Below, piece by piece: positions 36,041 through 45,853 of a DNA stretch of 64,000 bases. Position numbers and translations under genes: made by a program. Below the pieces are notes generated by a model, which ran no database searches, had not been told where the DNA came from, and worked only from the letters and a program-made list of their open reading frames with translations. How positions within the stretch are numbered: the first letter of the stretch is position 1; every line of letters starts with the position of its first letter. The stretch lies in NCBI RefSeq assembly GCF_900117445.1, contig NZ_FPEJ01000001.1, forward strand, positions 424,501-488,500, read 5' to 3'. The DNA comes from Hyphomicrobium sp. NDB2Meth4. Lineage in GTDB: Bacteria; Pseudomonadota; Alphaproteobacteria; Rhizobiales; Hyphomicrobiaceae.

Positions 36041-36055
36041 TTAACTATCTATTAA
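36041..36055 (-). promoter_or_regulatory. CtrA-type box 1 upstream of cqsA
   Basis: TTAA-CTATCTA-TTAA matches the TTAA-N7-TTAA recognition sequence of the alphaproteobacterial master regulator CtrA. Read on the minus strand it gives TTAA-N7-TTAAC, the extended form. It lies 158 bases upstream of the cqsA start. It is placed by consensus alone. Confidence 0.6.
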
Positions 36056-36182
36056 GCGCTGCCCCAATTCAGCTCGAAAATTGGCTGATGGTGCAAATAC
36101 AAGTTCAAGAAACTCGGCATTCCAGGCGATTCCGCTCCCGGTCGGCAGAAATGGGATTGCGGTTAACCCACGTCTTTCGTAG

Positions 36183-36198
36183 TTAAGAACTCATTAAC
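36183..36198 (+). promoter_or_regulatory. CtrA-type box 2 upstream of cqsA
   Basis: TTAA-GAACTCA-TTAAC on the plus strand is an exact TTAA-N7-TTAAC CtrA consensus ending 14 bases before the cqsA GTG start. This close to the start, bound protein could repress, or the transcript could start very near the gene. A further TTAAC half-site occurs nearby, at about 36163. Confidence 0.65.
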
Positions 36199-36212
36199 AG
36201 TGAGGGTGGGCA

Positions 36213-37631
36213 GTGTTGTTTAAAGTTGTCGATAAGAGAGTAAATAAGCCGCGCACTGAAATTCAAAGTCCGAAAGAGCCTGACTTTCTGCGGACCCGCG
36301 TTGACGATTATCACGTGCGCAGGAAGGTCGACCTCTGGCAGGGGACCCATCCCCTGCAGGGGAGAGCTCCGCGCCCCGGCGACATCAAAGTCCGCAGCAA
36401 TGATTATCTCTGCCTCGCCGGCCATCCCCATGTGATCGAGAGCGAGATCGCGGCCCTGCGCGCTGGCGGTCATGGCGATGCCGTCTCCCGCGTATGGATC
36501 CACCACGAGCGCGATGTCACGGGCGAGTTTGAGCAGCGCGTCGCCCGCCTGATGCTGGCCGAAGACTGCGTCCTCTGCTCCTCCGGCTACACCGCCAACG
36601 TCGGCCTGATCCAATCATTCGCGATGCGCGATGCGCCGGTCTATCTAGACATGAAGGCGCACATCTCGCTGCACGAGGGCGTCGTCAGCGCTGGCGCCCG
36701 CGCCGTCCTCTTCCGCCACAACGATCCACAGTCGCTCGATAAAGCCTTAGCCCAAAGCGGGCCGGGGCTCGTCTGTGTTGACGCGCTCTACAGCACCGAT
36801 GGCGACATCGCCCCCCTTGCCGAGTTGGTAGAGGTCTGTGAGCGCCACGGAGCGGCGCTGGTCGTTGACGAGACACACTCGTTCGGTGCCCAGGGCCCTG
36901 AGGGCGCCGGCCTCGTCGTCGCACTGGGTCTCGCCGATCGCGTCCACTTTAGAACTGTCGGGCTCTCCAAAGCTGTTGCCAGCCGCGGTGGCCTCGTCGT
37001 CGCCTCGCGACGGAACATTGAATACTTCCGCTACGAGGCGTTGCCCGCGATCTTCAGCACCTCCGTCATGCAGCACGAAGTCGCCGGCTTCGACGCCGTC
37101 CTCGACGTGTTCCAGACGGAGTATTGGCGCCGCGACAAGCTGCACGCCAACCACGCCTACCTCAAGGAGGGCCTGGATGCGCTCGGCTACAACGTGGCGG
37201 CATCGAAAGCGCAGATCATCGCGCTCGAGCCAGGCGACATCCGCCAGACCACACAGCTGCGTGACGCGCTGGAGAAGCGCGGCGTATTCGGCGCCATCTT
37301 CTTCCCGCCCGCAACGCCCGAGAAGCGCTGCCTCATCCGCTTTACGGTCAACTGTGGTCTGAGCCGCCAAGACCTAGATCGCATCATCGGGGTCTGCGAC
37401 GAAATCCGCGACGAGGTCGGCATGGCCGAGTGGCGCTCGACCAAGCGCAAATCGACCAGCCCTGGCCAATTGACGCCAAGCGCTGCGCGCAGGCCGCGGT
37501 CAGACCGCAGTCGCGTCCTCTCCGACTGGCTGAACCGCGGGCAAATCAATCGTGAAGCTGGTTCCGAAGTCGACCTCCGACTCGCACGAAATCGTCCCGC
37601 CGGCACTTTCCACAATCATCCGGCAGAATGA
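36213..37631 (+). CDS. cqsA: Alpha-hydroxyketone-type quorum-sensing autoinducer synthase (CqsA/LqsA family)
   Basis: A PLP-dependent alpha-oxoamine synthase fold of 472 residues. It matches Vibrio CqsA piece by piece: SNDYLCLAGHP, CSSGYTANVGLIQ, VYLDMKAHISLHEG, ALYSTDGDIAPLAELV, VVDETHSFGAQGPEGAGLV, LPAIFST, KRGVFGAIFFPPAT. The PLP lysine is Lys253 in VGLSKAVASRGG. CqsA enzymes condense an acyl-CoA with an amino acid-derived or SAM substrate to give CAI-1/LAI-1-type signals; the substrate here is unknown. The start is GTG at 36213 after GAGGGTGGG. The last 60 or so residues extend beyond Vibrio CqsA, and the final 132 bases overlap the convergent sensor gene. Two CtrA-type boxes precede it. 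A KBL or HemA role is disfavoured by these motifs and by the kinase next door. Confidence 0.9.
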   Translation: MLFKVVDKRVNKPRTEIQSPKEPDFLRTRVDDYHVRRKVDLWQGTHPLQGRAPRPGDIKVRSNDYLCLAGHPHVIESEIAALRAGGHGDAVSRVWIHHERDVTGEFEQRVARLMLAEDCVLCSSGYTANVGLIQSFAMRDAPVYLDMKAHISLHEGVVSAGARAVLFRHNDPQSLDKALAQSGPGLVCVDALYSTDGDIAPLAELVEVCERHGAALVVDETHSFGAQGPEGAGLVVALGLADRVHFRTVGLSKAVASRGGLVVASRRNIEYFRYEALPAIFSTSVMQHEVAGFDAVLDVFQTEYWRRDKLHANHAYLKEGLDALGYNVAASKAQIIALEPGDIRQTTQLRDALEKRGVFGAIFFPPATPEKRCLIRFTVNCGLSRQDLDRIIGVCDEIRDEVGMAEWRSTKRKSTSPGQLTPSAARRPRSDRSRVLSDWLNRGQINREAGSEVDLRLARNRPAGTFHNHPAE

Positions 37632-38852
37632 CAATCCGAGTCCGGTGCCGACACCGGGTCTCTGCGCCGACACGAACGGGATGAACAGGTAGTTGCGCAA
37701 CTCCGGGGGGACGCCCTCCCCGGTGTCGATGACAATAATCCGGTTCATCCCCTCGCCTTGCCGCAGCGAGATCGACAGATAGTGATCGCTCCCGCCCCGC
37801 GCCTCGATCGCCCGCAGACCATTCTTCATGAGATTGAAGAGGACGTGCGTCATCAGCAGATCGGATCCGCGAAACCGAAAGTCTTCGTCGATATCGAGGC
37901 GCACCAGCTCGCGCTGATTGGGCTTGAAGCTGTAACGCTCGATCGCCTGCTTCACCACCTGGCGCATGCTATGCAGTTCGCTCGCTGGCGATCCGCGGTG
38001 ATGTTGCGCCACGTTCGACAACAGCAGATCGATCACGGAGTTGGCCGACGTAATGTGTTGCCGCACCCGGCTGTGCGATGCCGCCAGCTTGTCGCGCGCC
38101 GGCGATGGCGGCAGTCGCGCGATGAGCCGCTCACATCCATCTGCCTCGAAGCGAATGCCAGTCAACGGCGTCCGGCACTCGTGCGCGACCTGGCTTGCGA
38201 GCGAAGCTGCGGCCTTGAGCTTTTCACGCGCGATCAGGTTGTCGCTGTACGCCAGACCGAAGATCGCCGTCAGCGCAAACATCAAGACGGGAAGCGTCGT
38301 CCAGTAGCCAATCGGTATTGGCGCACCGCCCGTCATCAGCAGGTAGGCAGCAATCGCCGCCAACGACCCGACGATGAGAACGACAATGGCGTTCACGAGA
38401 TCGTACAGCAGCACGACATAAATCAGCGCTGCCAGCGTCGACATCTGCCACGTGGAGTTGCTGTCGTTGAGCAGCAGCATCAGCGTGAAGAAGAAGGGCA
38501 GACTGAATAGAAAGGTGAAGTACGAAAAGGGCACCGCATACCGTTGCAACCGCCGGGGCCACCACGGCGATAGCGCCAGCGCAAGACAAAGAGCTGTGCC
38601 AATGCCACGCAGCAGCAAGCTCTCGTAAGGCTGCGGCAGCACATACTTCCAGGTCAGATAGAACACGGGAAAGCCGAGCACGCCGATAACGGCAGCCGCG
38701 CGAATCTTGCGCTGTGCGTGCGCGTGATACTCGATGTAACGGCGCGATAGCTCCTGCACCAGGCGCGAGACCGCGAACGGTCGCGCTTTGGCAGCGCTAC
38801 GCGACCCCCGCAGAAGCGGTCTTAGTAAATTGTGCTCAGCCAATTGGAACAT
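37500..38852 (-). CDS. cqsS: CqsS/LqsS-family sensor histidine kinase
   Basis: A 450-residue membrane sensor. About six TM segments (52-205) carry the family signatures GVLGFPVFYLTWKYVLPQPY (57-76) and LPFFFTLMLLLNDSNSTWQM (118-137), which parallel the ligand-binding membrane domain of Vibrio CqsS. Trp135 lies where autoinducer contacts are expected. The kinase core has H-box VAHECRTPLTG with His224, an N-box NLMKNGLRAI, and G-boxes DTGEGVP and GTGLGLSFCRMIV. Unlike Vibrio CqsS it has no C-terminal receiver, so it should pass phosphate directly to the LqsR-like protein encoded divergently. The ATG at 38852 lacks a strong ribosome site and the first 50 or so residues are extra, so a later start is possible. 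Confidence 0.88.
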   Translation of the reverse strand: MFQLAEHNLLRPLLRGSRSAAKARPFAVSRLVQELSRRYIEYHAHAQRKIRAAAVIGVLGFPVFYLTWKYVLPQPYESLLLRGIGTALCLALALSPWWPRRLQRYAVPFSYFTFLFSLPFFFTLMLLLNDSNSTWQMSTLAALIYVVLLYDLVNAIVVLIVGSLAAIAAYLLMTGGAPIPIGYWTTLPVLMFALTAIFGLAYSDNLIAREKLKAAASLASQVAHECRTPLTGIRFEADGCERLIARLPPSPARDKLAASHSRVRQHITSANSVIDLLLSNVAQHHRGSPASELHSMRQVVKQAIERYSFKPNQRELVRLDIDEDFRFRGSDLLMTHVLFNLMKNGLRAIEARGGSDHYLSISLRQGEGMNRIIVIDTGEGVPPELRNYLFIPFVSAQRPGVGTGLGLSFCRMIVESAGGTISCESEVDFGTSFTIDLPAVQPVGEDATAV

Positions 38853-38950
38853 TTAAACTTTTAGCAGTCACCGTACCGGATACGATACGAAAACCTAGTA
38901 CCAACATCCTTACGGAACGTGCATCGCATCTCTAAGGATCCGGCGGTACA

Positions 38951-39922
38951 ATGACGCCATTCTACCATCCTACTTCGATCCTCGTGCTTGACGATGATCC
39001 GCTTTTTCTCGAAAGCCTGGATTTTCAGTTTAGCGAAGAGGTCTCGTGCCAGACCTTCACACGCCCCGACGCAGCGCTGGAGCATCTCCGCGCCCAGGCC
39101 GACCAGCATCCCAACTTCGGACGCTACTTTCGCGATGTCTCTGAAATGCACCCCGGCAAAGCCAGTCGGTTCGGTGATCTCGTACTCAAACTGCAGCTTT
39201 CAGAGCTTCAGTCGATCATCGATGATAGAGCCCGCGAACAGCGCGTCTCCGTCGCCGTCGTCGACTTCGATATGCCGAAGATGACAGGCGTAGAGTTCTC
39301 GCGATCTATTCGCGACTTGCCGGTGAAGATTATCCTGCTCACAGGCAAAGCCGGCCTGGAAACGGCCATCGGCGCCTTCAATGAAGGCGTCATCGACTGC
39401 TTCCTACAGAAGCAGGACTCGAGCGTGACCTATGCCTTGCGCCGCGAGATCAACCGCCTGCAGAACCAGTACTTCGCTGAAATCTCTGCGCCAATTCAGA
39501 GTGCACTCGCCCTGCAGAAGCCCACTTTCTTCGACGACCCGACGTTCGTCGAACTATTCCGCGATCTCTCCGAAAAGTACGAGATCGTGGAACACTACAT
39601 CTCCGACGCGCCCCAGGGCATCATGATGCGTGACGCCGAGGGCAACGAGTACTTTCTCCTCATTTCCGACGCTGAAAGCGCTGCGAGCCAGTGTGCGGCC
39701 GCGGAAAGCCAGGGCGCGCCCGACGACATGGTGCGCCTCCTTCGCACTCGCAAGGCCCACGCGTGGTTCCCTACCAATGGCGGCCACTATCACCCCGATT
39801 ATCAATCGAGCTGGACGCGCTTCATCTGGCCCGCACAGTCTTTGTCGGCCTCCAGCCGCTGGTGCTACAGCGTCGTGAACCGCCAAGCCGATGAAATGCC
39901 GCTTCGCAGCCAAACCGCCTAA
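38951..39922 (+). CDS. lqsR: LqsR-like response regulator with expanded receiver domain
   Basis: A 323-residue regulator. The receiver begins ILVLDDDPLFLESL with the acidic pocket Asp14-16. The phosphoacceptor is Asp105 in VVDFDMPKMTG, about 50 residues later than usual, because of an insertion (about 48-95) between the first helix and the second conserved strand. Thr131 (ILLTGKAG) and Lys154 (FLQKQDS) complete the site. Legionella LqsR has the same architecture, with its phosphorylated Asp near 108. The C-terminal part (about 165-323) has no helix-turn-helix and is of unknown fold. It is divergent from the CqsS-type sensor, with a 98-base promoter gap. The reading frame continues open after the TAA (see 40001-40132). 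Confidence 0.87.
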   Translation: MTPFYHPTSILVLDDDPLFLESLDFQFSEEVSCQTFTRPDAALEHLRAQADQHPNFGRYFRDVSEMHPGKASRFGDLVLKLQLSELQSIIDDRAREQRVSVAVVDFDMPKMTGVEFSRSIRDLPVKIILLTGKAGLETAIGAFNEGVIDCFLQKQDSSVTYALRREINRLQNQYFAEISAPIQSALALQKPTFFDDPTFVELFRDLSEKYEIVEHYISDAPQGIMMRDAEGNEYFLLISDAESAASQCAAAESQGAPDDMVRLLRTRKAHAWFPTNGGHYHPDYQSSWTRFIWPAQSLSASSRWCYSVVNRQADEMPLRSQTA

Positions 39923-40266: not shown

Positions 40267-42165
40267 ATGCCACACGTGAGGAACAGTTTGCTCAAGCTTG
40301 CCCAAGAGGCGGGGAAGCAGGAAGGTGCGCGCGAAGGGAAAGCTCAGTCTCCCGCGCCGGCCGACGATGTCGCACGTCTGCAGGCAACATTCGAGCAGCA
40401 GCTCGGTACGCTCCTTCGTCGCAACGAGAAGCTCGAGCAACTGAATAACTGCTTTGAAGCTGCGCTCAATCACTTGGGCCGCGGCCTGTCGATGTTCGAC
40501 GGCGAGCAACGTCTCGTCGTCTGTAACAAGGCCTACGCCGACATTTATGTCCTGCCCGCGAACATGACACGCGCCGGCACGCCGCTTGCTGAAATCCTCT
40601 GCTATCATATGCAGCGTAAGGGCAAGAAGCTGACAAGGGCAGCCGCTCTCGAGTGGGTGAAAGAGCACGTTGCCAGGCTGCAGCACGGCAGCCCTCGCGA
40701 AGAGATTCAGAATCTTCCTGACGGCCGCGTTATCCGCGTGACGTACCAGCCTCTATCGAATGGCGGCTGGGTCGACATGCAGGAGGACATCACGGCCCAG
40801 CGTCAGTCGGACGAAAAAATCGAATGGCTTGCACGCCACGACACGCTGACCGAGATACCGAACCGCTTCCACTTCCGTGAGCGTCTCGAGCAGCAGTTCG
40901 AGACCTATGATCCCCGCCAGGGATTTGCCCTTCTCTGGATGGACCTCGACCGCTTCAAAGAGGTGAACGACCGCCTTGGCCACCTCGTCGGCGACGGCCT
41001 TCTGAAAAGCGTAGCTGCCCGGCTGAAGAGCAGCCTGCGTGCCGGCGACGTTGTCGGCCGCCTCGGCGGCGACGAGTTTGCCATTCTTCAAGTCGGCGTT
41101 GACCGCGAGGACCTCGCAGATAATCTCGCGCGGCGCCTGCTGCAAAACATCCGCGGCACCCACGATGTCTACGGACATTGCCTGCAGGTCGACGCCAGCA
41201 TCGGCGTCGCGCTGGCACCTCATCACGGCCAGGATCCCGAGCAATTGTTCGCCTGCGCCGACATGGCGCTCTACAGCGCCAAGTCTATGGGGCGCGGCAT
41301 CCATGCCATCTACGCTCCCGGAGCCGTCACCCCGTCCGCTTCGCCAAATCCCTTGCGCGCCGAGTTGCAGGACGCATTGGACCGCGGCGAGTTCGCTCTC
41401 CACTATCAGCCGATCGTCGATTTGCACGAGGGCCGCGTTTCCAGCTTCGAAGCCCTGATGCGCTCGCGGCACCCGAGCCGCGGCATGATCCCGCCTTCCG
41501 AATTCATCCCCATCGCCGAAGAGACCCGGCTGATCGTCCGCATGGGCAGTTGGGCTCTGCGTCAGGCATGCCTTGATGCCAAGGAGTGGCCGGACGGGAT
41601 CAAGGTCGCGGTGAACCTATCCGCCGTGCAGATCGAATCCAGCAATGTCTACGAGACGGTGATCGAAGCGCTCGAAGCGACCGGACTGCCGGCTCAGCGA
41701 CTGCAGCTCGAAATCACCGAGACGGTTCTGATGCGGGATCAGGCCCGCACGCAGGAGGTCCTGCGCAAGCTGCACGACCTTGGCGTGCTCATTTCGCTCG
41801 ACGATTTCGGCACCTGCTTTGCGACTTTGAACTACCTGCGCAGCTTCCCCTTCAAGAAGCTCAAGATCGACCGCAGCTTCGTGCGCGACATTCCCGAGCA
41901 CCACGACTGCGTGGCGATCGTCAAATCGGTGGCCGACCTCGCACGCGAATTGAACATGCGCTCAGTGGCGGAGGGCGTTGAGACCGCTGCCAGCCTCGCA
42001 GCAGTACGCGCCGCAGGCTATAGCGAAGCACAGGGCTTCTATTTCAGCCCGCCGGTTCGCGTGAGCGGCATCAAGCGCGCGATCAAGCAGTGCGCGCTGC
42101 GCCTTGCCGCGCTCGACGCAACAACGCCAGCCCCGAAGCCGCAGCCCCGGCGAACTCAGAAGTAG
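40267..42165 (+). CDS. PAS-GGDEF-EAL cyclic-di-GMP turnover protein
   Basis: A 632-residue cytoplasmic protein. A short coiled coil (about 30-60) is followed by a PAS-like sensor domain (GLSMFDGEQRLVVCNKAYADIY, about 75-175). The GGDEF domain (200-355) has an intact active site RLGGDEF (about 263-269) and an intact inhibitory site RAGD five residues before it. The EAL domain (365-620) has EALMRSRHP, VAVNLSAVQ, EITET, DDFG, KKLKIDRSF and AEGVET, so both cyclase and phosphodiesterase activities could be present. ATG at 40267 or GTG at 40276 (better spacing from CAGGGA). No TM segment. It lies next to the quorum-sensing genes, in the same direction as lqsR. Confidence 0.93.
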   Translation: MPHVRNSLLKLAQEAGKQEGAREGKAQSPAPADDVARLQATFEQQLGTLLRRNEKLEQLNNCFEAALNHLGRGLSMFDGEQRLVVCNKAYADIYVLPANMTRAGTPLAEILCYHMQRKGKKLTRAAALEWVKEHVARLQHGSPREEIQNLPDGRVIRVTYQPLSNGGWVDMQEDITAQRQSDEKIEWLARHDTLTEIPNRFHFRERLEQQFETYDPRQGFALLWMDLDRFKEVNDRLGHLVGDGLLKSVAARLKSSLRAGDVVGRLGGDEFAILQVGVDREDLADNLARRLLQNIRGTHDVYGHCLQVDASIGVALAPHHGQDPEQLFACADMALYSAKSMGRGIHAIYAPGAVTPSASPNPLRAELQDALDRGEFALHYQPIVDLHEGRVSSFEALMRSRHPSRGMIPPSEFIPIAEETRLIVRMGSWALRQACLDAKEWPDGIKVAVNLSAVQIESSNVYETVIEALEATGLPAQRLQLEITETVLMRDQARTQEVLRKLHDLGVLISLDDFGTCFATLNYLRSFPFKKLKIDRSFVRDIPEHHDCVAIVKSVADLARELNMRSVAEGVETAASLAAVRAAGYSEAQGFYFSPPVRVSGIKRAIKQCALRLAALDATTPAPKPQPRRTQK

Positions 42166-43370: not shown

Positions 43371-45767
43371 TCAGGCCGGGTCGGTGTGGCTTCCCGGCAA
43401 TGGGCCGAACCAGCGGCGCAGTACGCCCTCCAATCCGGCCTTGTCGAACGGCTTGGCGAGGTAGTCGTCCATGCCAGATTCCAGATACCGTTGCCGGTCC
43501 TCGGCAAAGGCACTTGCCGTCAGCGCGATGATTGGAGGCGCCTTCACGGTATCGGATTCCCGCGCATAAAGCGCTCTGATCGCGCGTGCCGCTTCCATGC
43601 CGTCGAGGTGAGGCATGAAAATATCCATCAACACCAGATCGATGGCTTCGGCATCACCCGCCAACGACCGCTGCATGAACGCCACGGCCTCCGCACCGTT
43701 CGAGACGGCAACGTATTCACAGCCGCACTTCTCGAGCACGCGCTTGGCCAGCAGCAGATTGATCTCGTTGTCTTCCGCAAGCAGCACGCGTTGCACCGAA
43801 CCGGCTCGAACCCCCACAGGAACTTCACGCGCACAATCACGCTCTCTCGCGCCGTCACCTGCCCCATTGCGCTGCAAGCCCAATTGAATCATCAGCGAGC
43901 TCGGCCGGACTGGCCTAACGAGATAGGCATCAAATCCGACATCACGGAATTCCGACAGCATCGAGCGCGCGAGCACGTTGACCAGCACGATGCCGCGCAC
44001 ACCGCGCTCCTTATTGATCTCGCGCGCGTTGCTCAGCAGCTTTCCCGCTTCCGCAACCCCCTCCGCCCCATCAATGACGATGCGGTCGAACGGCGCACCC
44101 TCGCGTTGAGCAGCTATGAGATGGTCTACGGCCGATGCGAAACCGCACTCTGTCGCGGCGACCCCTGCGGCATCGAGAACCTCTCCCAACGCCCGGCGCT
44201 CTAGCGGGCGGTCGAACACCAGCAGTACGCGGGCATCGTCCGCCCCTGCGATCGCCTCACCATCTGTCGAATCGTTCCTGGCGCGCTGCAGCATCAGTGC
44301 AGCGCTGAAAACCGACCCCCTGCCAAGCTCGCTGGTGACGCGGATATCTCCGCCCATCGCCCGGGCAAGCTCTCTGGAAATGGTGAGCCCCAGTCCCGTC
44401 CCACCCTCACGGCGTCGCACGGCAACGTCCGCCTGCTCAAACTCCGAGAACAGGACACGCATGTCCTCGGCCGACATCCCGATGCCGGTATCCTCGACCG
44501 TCATCTCAATGTCGATTCGCGAGCCAACCGGCTCGCCCCTCCGCGTGATACGTACGCTGACACCGCCCGCGTCGGTGAACTTCACCGCATTCGATAACAG
44601 GTTCAGTAGGATCTGCCGGAAGCGCGCCTCGTCGCCGATGACCATGTTCGGCAGCTGCGGGCTGACCGTCCAGGCAATCTCGAGTCCCTTCTCGTGGGCG
44701 CGCGGTGCCAACAGTTCGACGGCCTCCTGCACGCACACATTAAGCGCGAAGGGCGCTTCAACGAGCGCCAGCTTGCCAGCCTCGATCTTGGAGAAATCCA
44801 GAATCTCGTCGATCAGCGCCAACAGCGTGCGCGCCGACTGATCGATCGCGCGCACGTATGTCTGTTGCTCCGGCGTCTGCTCGGTCTCGGACAGAAGACT
44901 TGCCATGCCGAGGATACCGTTCATCGGCGTACGAATTTCATGGCTCATCGTCGCGAGGAAGCGGCCCTTCGCGCGGTTGGCCGATTCAGCCAGATCACGC
45001 GCCTCCGCCAGGTGCATCTCCGCCCGTTTCCGCTGCGTCACATCCCGGCCCACGCACTGCACTTCCAGGCGTGTGCCGTCAGGTCCGGCGACGAGCTGCT
45101 CCTCCCACTCGATCCAGCGCGGCCCCGCCACGGTCAAGACGTGCTGCACAATCCGCTGCCGTCTTACGCCGCTCGTCGTAGACAGCGGCTCGTGCGCGCA
45201 TTCCTCGCACAGCTTGGCGACGAACGGCGTCCCCAATGCAGTTTCTGCCTTGAGCCCGAACATATCCAGGAAGGCTTTGTTGGCGAAGGTCAGCAGCCCA
45301 TGCTCGTCGCGCCGCAGAATGGCTTCCTCCTGCGAATCGAGCAGCGCGCGATAGCGAGCCTCCTCCTCGTTCAACTCCCACCGTGCATCCTGCAGCCGCT
45401 CGAGCCGCCGCTCGATGCGCGCGACGCTCTCCATCTGCGCGGCGCCGGCACCCGCGCGAGCAGTGAACGCCAGATAGATCGAGACCAGCGTCAGCCCAAG
45501 TCCCAGGGCGATAAAAACCTGCAGCGCCGAGAGAGGACCCGGCAGCAGCGCAAACGCCACGACGAGACAGCAAAGCCCCGACAGCAGCATCAGCAAGGAG
45601 ATGACGGATTGCGAATTGGGATCAGCCGAATGGCGCCCTGCAAGCACCCCGGAAGGGATGCCGGCTATACGCTCCGAGGTGTACTCACGTGACCTGCGCG
45701 ACTTTGCATCGCCGGCCCGCACGACACCCGGGGCGTCCGCTAATTTGAGACGCTTCACACCAATCAA
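43371..45767 (-). CDS. Membrane-bound hybrid sensor histidine kinase (PAS, pseudo-receiver, receiver)
   Basis: A 798-residue protein. It has two TM segments (about 55-105, ISLLMLLSGLCCLVVAFALL and LQVFIALGLGLTLVSIYLAF) and a coiled linker, then a PAS domain (about 135-250). HisKA follows with the H-box FLATMSHEIRTPMNGILGM, then HATPase_c (LLNLLSNAVKFTDAGG, DTGIGM, GGTGLGLTISRELARAMGG). A degenerate receiver comes next (RVLLVFDRP instead of an acidic pair, VRP in place of KP) and a complete receiver (VLLAEDNEINLLLAKRV, LVLMDIFMPHLDGMEA, LAKPF). The first in-frame start is TTG at 45767; GTG at 45758 is an alternative. Its signal and targets are unknown. Confidence 0.88.
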   Translation of the reverse strand: MIGVKRLKLADAPGVVRAGDAKSRRSREYTSERIAGIPSGVLAGRHSADPNSQSVISLLMLLSGLCCLVVAFALLPGPLSALQVFIALGLGLTLVSIYLAFTARAGAGAAQMESVARIERRLERLQDARWELNEEEARYRALLDSQEEAILRRDEHGLLTFANKAFLDMFGLKAETALGTPFVAKLCEECAHEPLSTTSGVRRQRIVQHVLTVAGPRWIEWEEQLVAGPDGTRLEVQCVGRDVTQRKRAEMHLAEARDLAESANRAKGRFLATMSHEIRTPMNGILGMASLLSETEQTPEQQTYVRAIDQSARTLLALIDEILDFSKIEAGKLALVEAPFALNVCVQEAVELLAPRAHEKGLEIAWTVSPQLPNMVIGDEARFRQILLNLLSNAVKFTDAGGVSVRITRRGEPVGSRIDIEMTVEDTGIGMSAEDMRVLFSEFEQADVAVRRREGGTGLGLTISRELARAMGGDIRVTSELGRGSVFSAALMLQRARNDSTDGEAIAGADDARVLLVFDRPLERRALGEVLDAAGVAATECGFASAVDHLIAAQREGAPFDRIVIDGAEGVAEAGKLLSNAREINKERGVRGIVLVNVLARSMLSEFRDVGFDAYLVRPVRPSSLMIQLGLQRNGAGDGARERDCAREVPVGVRAGSVQRVLLAEDNEINLLLAKRVLEKCGCEYVAVSNGAEAVAFMQRSLAGDAEAIDLVLMDIFMPHLDGMEAARAIRALYARESDTVKAPPIIALTASAFAEDRQRYLESGMDDYLAKPFDKAGLEGVLRRWFGPLPGSHTDPA

Positions 45768-45853
45768 ACCCGTTACGCAAAACTGAATGAGGTTGCGTCA
45801 AAGCAATCATACGGTGGTTGCTAAACGTTGAAGCGAGTTGGTTAATCGGCGTC

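Follow-up and report, generated by a model that had tools for sequence, protein, structure and literature searches.

Gene content of the locus

Three adjacent genes (36213-39922) in the window, the whole 64,000-nucleotide stretch of Hyphomicrobium sp. NDB2Meth4 DNA analysed here, encode an autoinducer synthase of the CqsA/LqsA type, a sensor histidine kinase of the CqsS/LqsS type and a response regulator of the LqsR type (Table 1). A sequence-only reading of this DNA had proposed three open reading frames at these positions, with Lys253, His224 and Asp105 in their products; all three frames and all three residues are indeed present. The strand had been left out there: cqsS lies on the minus strand and is convergent with cqsA. 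The same gene order is found at locus L041 and in Rhodomicrobium (L042).

Table 1. Features of the quorum-sensing-type locus; positions are those of the window.
Feature	Position	Strand	Properties	Evidence
cqsA/lqsA-type autoinducer synthase	36213..37631	+	472 aa, GTG start, PLP Lys253	NF005526, PDB CqsA, tree
cqsS/lqsS-type sensor histidine kinase	37500..38852	-	450 aa, His224, without fused receiver	V. campbellii CqsS, HisKA, HATPase_c
Tail-to-tail overlap of cqsA and cqsS	37500..37631		132 nt	Equal length in 4 of 4 full-circuit genomes of the genus
Start of PQxYE(4x)R in the sensor, codons Pro73-Gln74-x-Tyr76...	38628..38636	-		Computed from the ORF end 38852
Sensor Arg82 codon	About 20 bases beyond 38628..38636	-		
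lqsR-type response regulator	38951..39922	+	323 aa, receiver Asp105	6sy9 residues 4-309, fold match
PAS-GGDEF-EAL protein	40267..42165	+	Candidate output partner in the genus (inferred)	Pfam, orthologue distribution

The window lies within contig C13 of a genome of 4.08 Mb. The GC content is 63% for cqsA, 61% for cqsS and 58% for lqsR, the latter about 2 SD below the window mean of 63% (SD 2.2 points, 1-kb stretches); a foreign origin of the three genes was considered, and their base composition gave no firm signal for it. No LuxR-type match (PF03472) was obtained in the whole genome, with a positive E. coli control, and no LuxI-type match (PF00765) was obtained in the genome or in the control genomes.

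Identity of synthase, sensor and regulator

The synthase scored 458.8 bits with the NCBIfam model for alpha-hydroxyketone-type autoinducer synthases (NF005526, cut-off 428). Among the 15 models listed for the protein this is the only one that exceeded its own cut-off, and among five NF005526 matches in the genome the synthase of the window is the only one above it. Its best relatives of solved structure are CAI-1 autoinducer synthase chains; CqsA of V. cholerae in the PDB was matched with an E value of 5e-79, and Lys253 aligns with the lysine at position 236 of that enzyme. In a tree of 45 CqsA and 11 outgroup sequences, a quick tree without bootstrap in which four outgroup branches are long, the synthase groups with CqsA and apart from KBL, BioF and HemA (SH-aLRT 100). 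The outgroup includes four paralogues from the same genome, one of which passes the model for 5-aminolevulinate synthase; the other three score best as BioF/KBL, below cut-off. Within the CqsA part the synthase is joined by three sisters (support 100) and then by L119, Rhodomicrobium and one uncultured alphaproteobacterium (98). A KBL, BioF or HemA identity of the enzyme was rejected on the NF005526 score, the tree and the scores of the paralogues. Of the nine acyl-pocket residues of V. cholerae CqsA that are listed in a passage of PMC3285556, five are identical and four are changed (V32L, F79W, F257Y, C346F).

The sensor contains the Pfam domains HisKA and HATPase_c and ends after the ATPase domain. 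Its hydropathy plot fits some six membrane spans in the region of residues 49-208, in line with the earlier six-span assignment. Residues 43-440 align with CqsS of V. campbellii (L134) at 31% identity and an E value of 5e-61, and the membrane part alone was matched with an E value of 5.6e-19. Conversely, a profile of the membrane domain grown from the window sensor over 96 CqsA loci, none of them titled Vibrio, finds both Vibrio sensors with E values around 1e-45. The likeness of synthase and sensor to Vibrio CqsA and CqsS, and that of the regulator to LqsR (below), is far beyond chance, and since the synthase falls with CqsA and the sensor membrane part matches CqsS, the overall reading of the locus is supported. 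Only one sensor of this type was matched in the window genome (G000), a second one was not found there. The sensor residue corresponding to V. cholerae C170 and V. harveyi F175 was considered as a predictor of acyl tail length, and the idea was dropped because the last span of the sensor aligns ambiguously.

The regulator is of the LqsR type, as had been suggested from its architecture. Its best match in the PDB is Legionella LqsR (6sy9; E 1.5e-32, residues 4-309), the only full-length relative of solved structure; the next match (E 1e-5) covers part of the receiver only. An AlphaFold model built from 41 sequences (pLDDT 87.5, pTM 0.83) is predicted to share this fold, matching 6sy9 over 311 columns with an E value of 9.8e-23 and TM scores of 0.71/0.74; the next structure follows at an E value of 2e-7. 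Asp105 is invariant in all 41 sequences. Pfam recognised the receiver domain only, and no DNA-binding domain was found by it. The regulator has an output domain of the LqsR type; according to a passage of PMC10653808, this domain resembles a diguanylate cyclase domain whose motif has degenerated, and no activity of it was detected in vitro.

The protein encoded next to lqsR carries both the GGDEF and the EAL motif. Orthologues with at least 68% identity are present in four of the 60 sampled genomes of the family (G000, G471, G504 and G779), all of which have the sensor and LqsR, and the next best match has 53%; the comparison of loci adds the gene in G777 and G778. GGDEF/EAL proteins were rejected as a regular constituent of Lqs loci, since any such open reading frame is found near cqsA in only 11 of 96 loci. 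The neighbourhood in this one genus suggests c-di-GMP as the output there, which we infer rather than observe because GGDEF-EAL genes are uncommon near cqsA outside the genus.

Occurrence of the genes and sensors without a synthase

A pattern-based scan of one genome per species (84,980 species) gave 219 synthase relatives. The best 80 of these were retained and, together with 15 further genome stretches and the window, make up 96 loci with at least four duplicates among them. With these duplicates counted, the CqsS-type membrane domain is present in 83 of the 96 CqsA loci and LqsR in 65. No CqsS-type sensor was found at the other 13 loci (L054, L066, L071, L074, L105, L109, L118, L127, L128, L130, L131, L132, L133); some of these are short contigs, and L109, L118, L127, L128, L131 and L132 are long and have other kinases or none. 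The order was represented by 397 genomes: nine have CqsA (E <= 1e-90), ten the sensor domain and ten LqsR; these are the same genomes except for G504, which lacks the synthase. In the sample of the class, CqsA exceeds the cut-off in 8 of 385 genomes. In what follows, a genome without CqsA is one with no NF005526 match over cut-off (class) or at E <= 1e-90 (order and genus), a call that may miss a gene interrupted at the end of a contig.

The genus itself resembles a deletion series. Four of its eight genomes have CqsA, and in these the locus reads maeB, phaZ, gst, cqsA and, on the opposite strand, cqsS, followed by lqsR, the GGDEF-EAL gene and, again reversed, olsB. G504 and G778 lack phaZ, gst and cqsA at the locus and have cqsS next to maeB, with lqsR, the GGDEF-EAL gene and olsB kept. 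No cluster was found in the remaining two: G780 has a P-type ATPase-like open reading frame between olsB and maeB instead, and the genome search of G620, whose contig is too short at the locus, gave no sensor and no LqsR. In the kinase-domain tree G504 and G778 fall within the genus (support 99) and within a clade of which all other members have CqsA (98). The simplest reading is therefore that the synthase was lost in the lineage of G504 and G778.

The sensors of these two receiver-only genomes differ from the window sensor mainly in the membrane domain. Identity in the membrane and kinase domains is 78-80% and 79-82% for the full-circuit sisters, 46% and 46% for L041, 44% and 41% for Rhodomicrobium, and 36-37% and 58-60% for G504 and G778. 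The ratio of membrane to kinase distance is 2.14 between receiver-only and full-circuit sensors (bootstrap 95% 1.58-3.05), compared with 0.99 (0.77-1.29) between outgroups and full-circuit sensors and 1.28 (0.91-1.88) among the latter; in 1000 bootstraps the receiver-only ratio was never as low as the outgroup ratio and was as low as the ratio among full circuits in 8. Measured to the outgroups, the receiver-only sensors exceed the full-circuit sensors by 0.03-0.31 (95%) in the kinase and by 0.35-0.98 in the membrane domain. dN/dS (NG86) between G504 and G778 is about 0.17 in the membrane and about 0.04 in the kinase domain; the corresponding control values are 0.11 and 0.06 (G471-G777), 0.10 and 0.09 (G000-G779) and 0.09 and 0.16 (G000-G471). 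Of 20 near-invariant membrane residues G504 keeps nine and G778 ten, as opposed to 20 in full circuits and 19 in two outgroups. The motif PQxYE(4x)R is lost in both.

Of the 83 sensors linked to a synthase, 80 have this motif intact; the tyrosine is replaced in two, and one has a gap at that position. In nine genomes without synthase, G504 and G778 included, 12 sensor copies were readable at the motif and not one has it intact. In the class, the sensor domain (E <= 1e-6) was detected in 13 of 327 genomes. Five of these also have CqsA over cut-off (G000, G001, G033, G162 and G260) and all five keep the motif, even G162, in which the sensor lies about 36 kb from the synthase. Three further genomes with CqsA over cut-off (G187, G281 and G359) are not among the sensor matches listed for the class, and no such sensor was found in their cqsA stretches. 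The other eight genomes with a sensor have no CqsA over cut-off (G020, G085, G133, G152, G214, G235, G250 and G273) and are 0.9-2.6 Mb in size. They gave 16 sensor matches, of which 11 were aligned and 10 were readable at the motif, with none intact; G133 comes nearest with one change and G085 is unreadable there. LqsR lies beside the sensor in five of the seven CqsA-less genomes from which longer stretches were read (G020, G152, G214, G235 and G250), and the GC content of the stretches from the seven is 31-43%. Judged from the small genomes and the low GC content, these Alphaproteobacteria are probably host-bound, which is a guess.

In the kinase tree the CqsA-less sensors require a minimum of four changes, and at least two by starred branches; four of these sensors are long-branched. 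Against the membrane profile the two Vibrio sensors, which keep the motif, score 148-150 bits, G133 scores 155.6 bits, and the other CqsA-less sensors of the class are more diverged (49-110 bits). Part of the loss of the motif may thus be general divergence, because the sensors without synthase are also more diverged overall. It is nevertheless tempting to suggest, tentatively and with somewhat less than even confidence, that PQxYE(4x)R is a working signature of alpha-hydroxyketone recognition and that Alphaproteobacteria dropped the synthase on more than one occasion while retaining the sensor, in many cases together with LqsR. Two Hyphomicrobium species and, independently of them, the small-genome, low-GC Alphaproteobacteria would be such cases, in which the sensing domain would have become free or been re-tuned to a different cue. 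If this is true, Lqs receivers without synthase would form a class of their own, quorum-sensing receptors put to a new use, and those of Hyphomicrobium would feed c-di-GMP via the linked GGDEF-EAL enzyme.

Proposed circuit and known systems

Taken together, the synthase model and tree, the five identical acyl-pocket residues, the match to Vibrio CqsS, the sequence and fold of LqsR, the linkage of the genes, their co-occurrence in the order and the divergence of the sensing domain in genomes of genus and class that lack the synthase make it very probable that the locus is a quorum-sensing circuit of the Lqs/Cqs type. In such a circuit CqsA would join a fatty acyl-CoA and an S-adenosylmethionine-type substrate in a PLP-dependent reaction, and its product, an alpha-hydroxyketone or amino-ketone, would diffuse between the cells and be sensed in the membrane domain of CqsS. 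The signal would lower the kinase activity of CqsS, as for LqsS, so that phosphate on Asp105 of LqsR would fall as the cell density rises; we propose this direction because a passage of the review PMC5289986 gives it for LqsS/LqsT, whose autophosphorylation is lowered by the signal. The output of LqsR in this genus would most likely run via the neighbouring GGDEF-EAL enzyme and c-di-GMP. The circuit had been called complete, which holds for synthase, sensor and regulator and does not extend to downstream targets. Against the circuit speak the four changed residues of the acyl pocket and the 13 of 96 loci, the stretches of G187, G281 and G359 among them, in which CqsA and sensor are unpaired; against the link to c-di-GMP speak its restriction to the neighbourhood in one genus and the report cited above that no diguanylate cyclase activity of LqsR was detected in vitro.

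The persistence of sensor and LqsR without synthase in G504, G778 and other Alphaproteobacteria, as well as the CqsA loci without CqsS-type sensor, would also fit a scheme in which the main cue for sensor and LqsR is a different one, with the product of CqsA serving as a side signal or being perceived by some other kinase. We consider this unlikely, since the membrane motif is lost where the synthase is absent but is almost always intact where it is present. There is still less reason to regard the circuit as a decaying relic in this lineage: despite the partial loss in two sisters and two further genomes of the genus in which the cluster was not found, the three open reading frames are intact, the catalytic residues are kept, the full set occurs in one order in four genomes and dN/dS is low, though dS is near or above 1 between some pairs. 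Least credible of all is a metabolic alpha-oxoamine synthase of the KBL, BioF or HemA type that adjoins a two-component pair by chance, for although the superfamily is shared and bioF (249.5 bits) and other models match below their own cut-offs, the NF005526 result and the tree, with its split from the 11 outgroup sequences, already largely refute it and a CqsS-type sensor accompanies the synthase in nine of nine genomes of the order.

Our preferred reading, a circuit of the Lqs/Cqs type, adds Hyphomicrobium as a further member to a type of system already known; the system itself is not new. A counterpart in arrangement is Rhodomicrobium, which we take to be a budding genus of the Hyphomicrobiales and the genus of R. 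vannielii; its lqs clusters (L042, L120) have the three genes in the same order and orientation, with the more distant sensor described above, but no GGDEF-EAL open reading frame was found near them. The sequence-only reading had known of no working example in budding or methylotrophic-type alphaproteobacteria. This overstated the novelty, since R. vannielii ATCC 17100 is named among CqsA homologues in a figure legend of 2013 (PMC3566124) and a passage of PMC10653808 describes lqs clusters from Alphaproteobacteria. In the open-licence PMC literature we found no functional study in Hyphomicrobium or Rhodomicrobium and, on LqsR in endosymbionts, nothing beyond Legionella titles, and on LqsS in Rickettsiales nothing. 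With Hyphomicrobium, the whole set of Lqs-type genes is seen in a group of environmental budding bacteria of which these searches gave no studied example. The new part would be the sequence-based natural experiment on receptor and synthase, partly confounded by divergence, of which we met no earlier account in the literature searched; the genus series allows the sensing residues of the receptor, and what becomes of a quorum receptor left without its synthase, to be tested in non-pathogens.

With the Lqs system of Legionella pneumophila (LqsA-LqsR-LqsS) the locus shares the three components, a sensor without fused receiver and the LqsR fold (6sy9). It differs in gene order, the Legionella cluster being given as lqsA-lqsR-hdeD-lqsS in a passage of PMC5289986, in having one sensor of this type found in G000 and in its GGDEF-EAL neighbour. 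The Vibrio pair CqsA/CqsS is homologous through the catalytic, membrane and kinase domains; CqsS of V. campbellii (681 aa) has a longer C-terminal end, and no LqsR was found in two Vibrio stretches, whereas Hyphomicrobium has one. Janthinobacterium has the same set of three genes, JqsA/JqsS/JqsR, and deletion of jqsA affects violacein there, as stated in a passage of PMC3566124, which calls the bacterium non-pathogenic. At its locus L094 the genes for sensor and regulator are found upstream of the synthase gene, on the opposite strand.

The overlap of cqsA and cqsS

The two genes meet tail to tail, and the length of their overlap is exactly 132 nt in all four Hyphomicrobium genomes that carry cqsA, cqsS and lqsR (the window, L124, L165 and L166). 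This overlap with cqsS gives rise to a C-terminal tail of CqsA that is absent from the other aligned CqsA proteins. In the Rhodomicrobium locus L120 the overlap measures 29 nt; at L119, whose CqsA joins those of the genus and of Rhodomicrobium in one clade of the tree, the genes are separated by a gap. Two ORFs matching the CqsA profile were seen at each of six other CqsA loci (L089, L098, L109, L114, L118 and L127).

A candidate output gene

Among 60 sampled genomes of the family, an orthologue of the PAS-GGDEF-EAL gene was found only together with the sensor and LqsR, and this gene is a candidate for a genus-specific output of the circuit. Close to the cluster lies a further long histidine-kinase ORF, whose similarity to the CqsS-type sensor is confined to the kinase part.

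Features of the window
Feature	Position	Strand	Length
cqsA/cqsS tail-to-tail overlap	37500-37631		132 nt
PAS-GGDEF-EAL gene	40267-42165		
Histidine-kinase ORF	43371-45797	-	

Apparently split sensors, and sensors without a CqsA over the cut-off

Apparently, the sensor is split over two ORFs in three alphaproteobacterial genomes (G162, G260 and G033; stretches L171-L173), with the membrane part on an ORF of 298-315 aa and, next to it, an ORF that matches the kinase and is about 460 aa long; the sensor of G162 lies about 36 kb away from cqsA. In small-genome, low-GC Alphaproteobacteria (L190, L191, L192, L194 and L196), a CqsS-type sensor adjoins LqsR in the absence of a CqsA over the cut-off.
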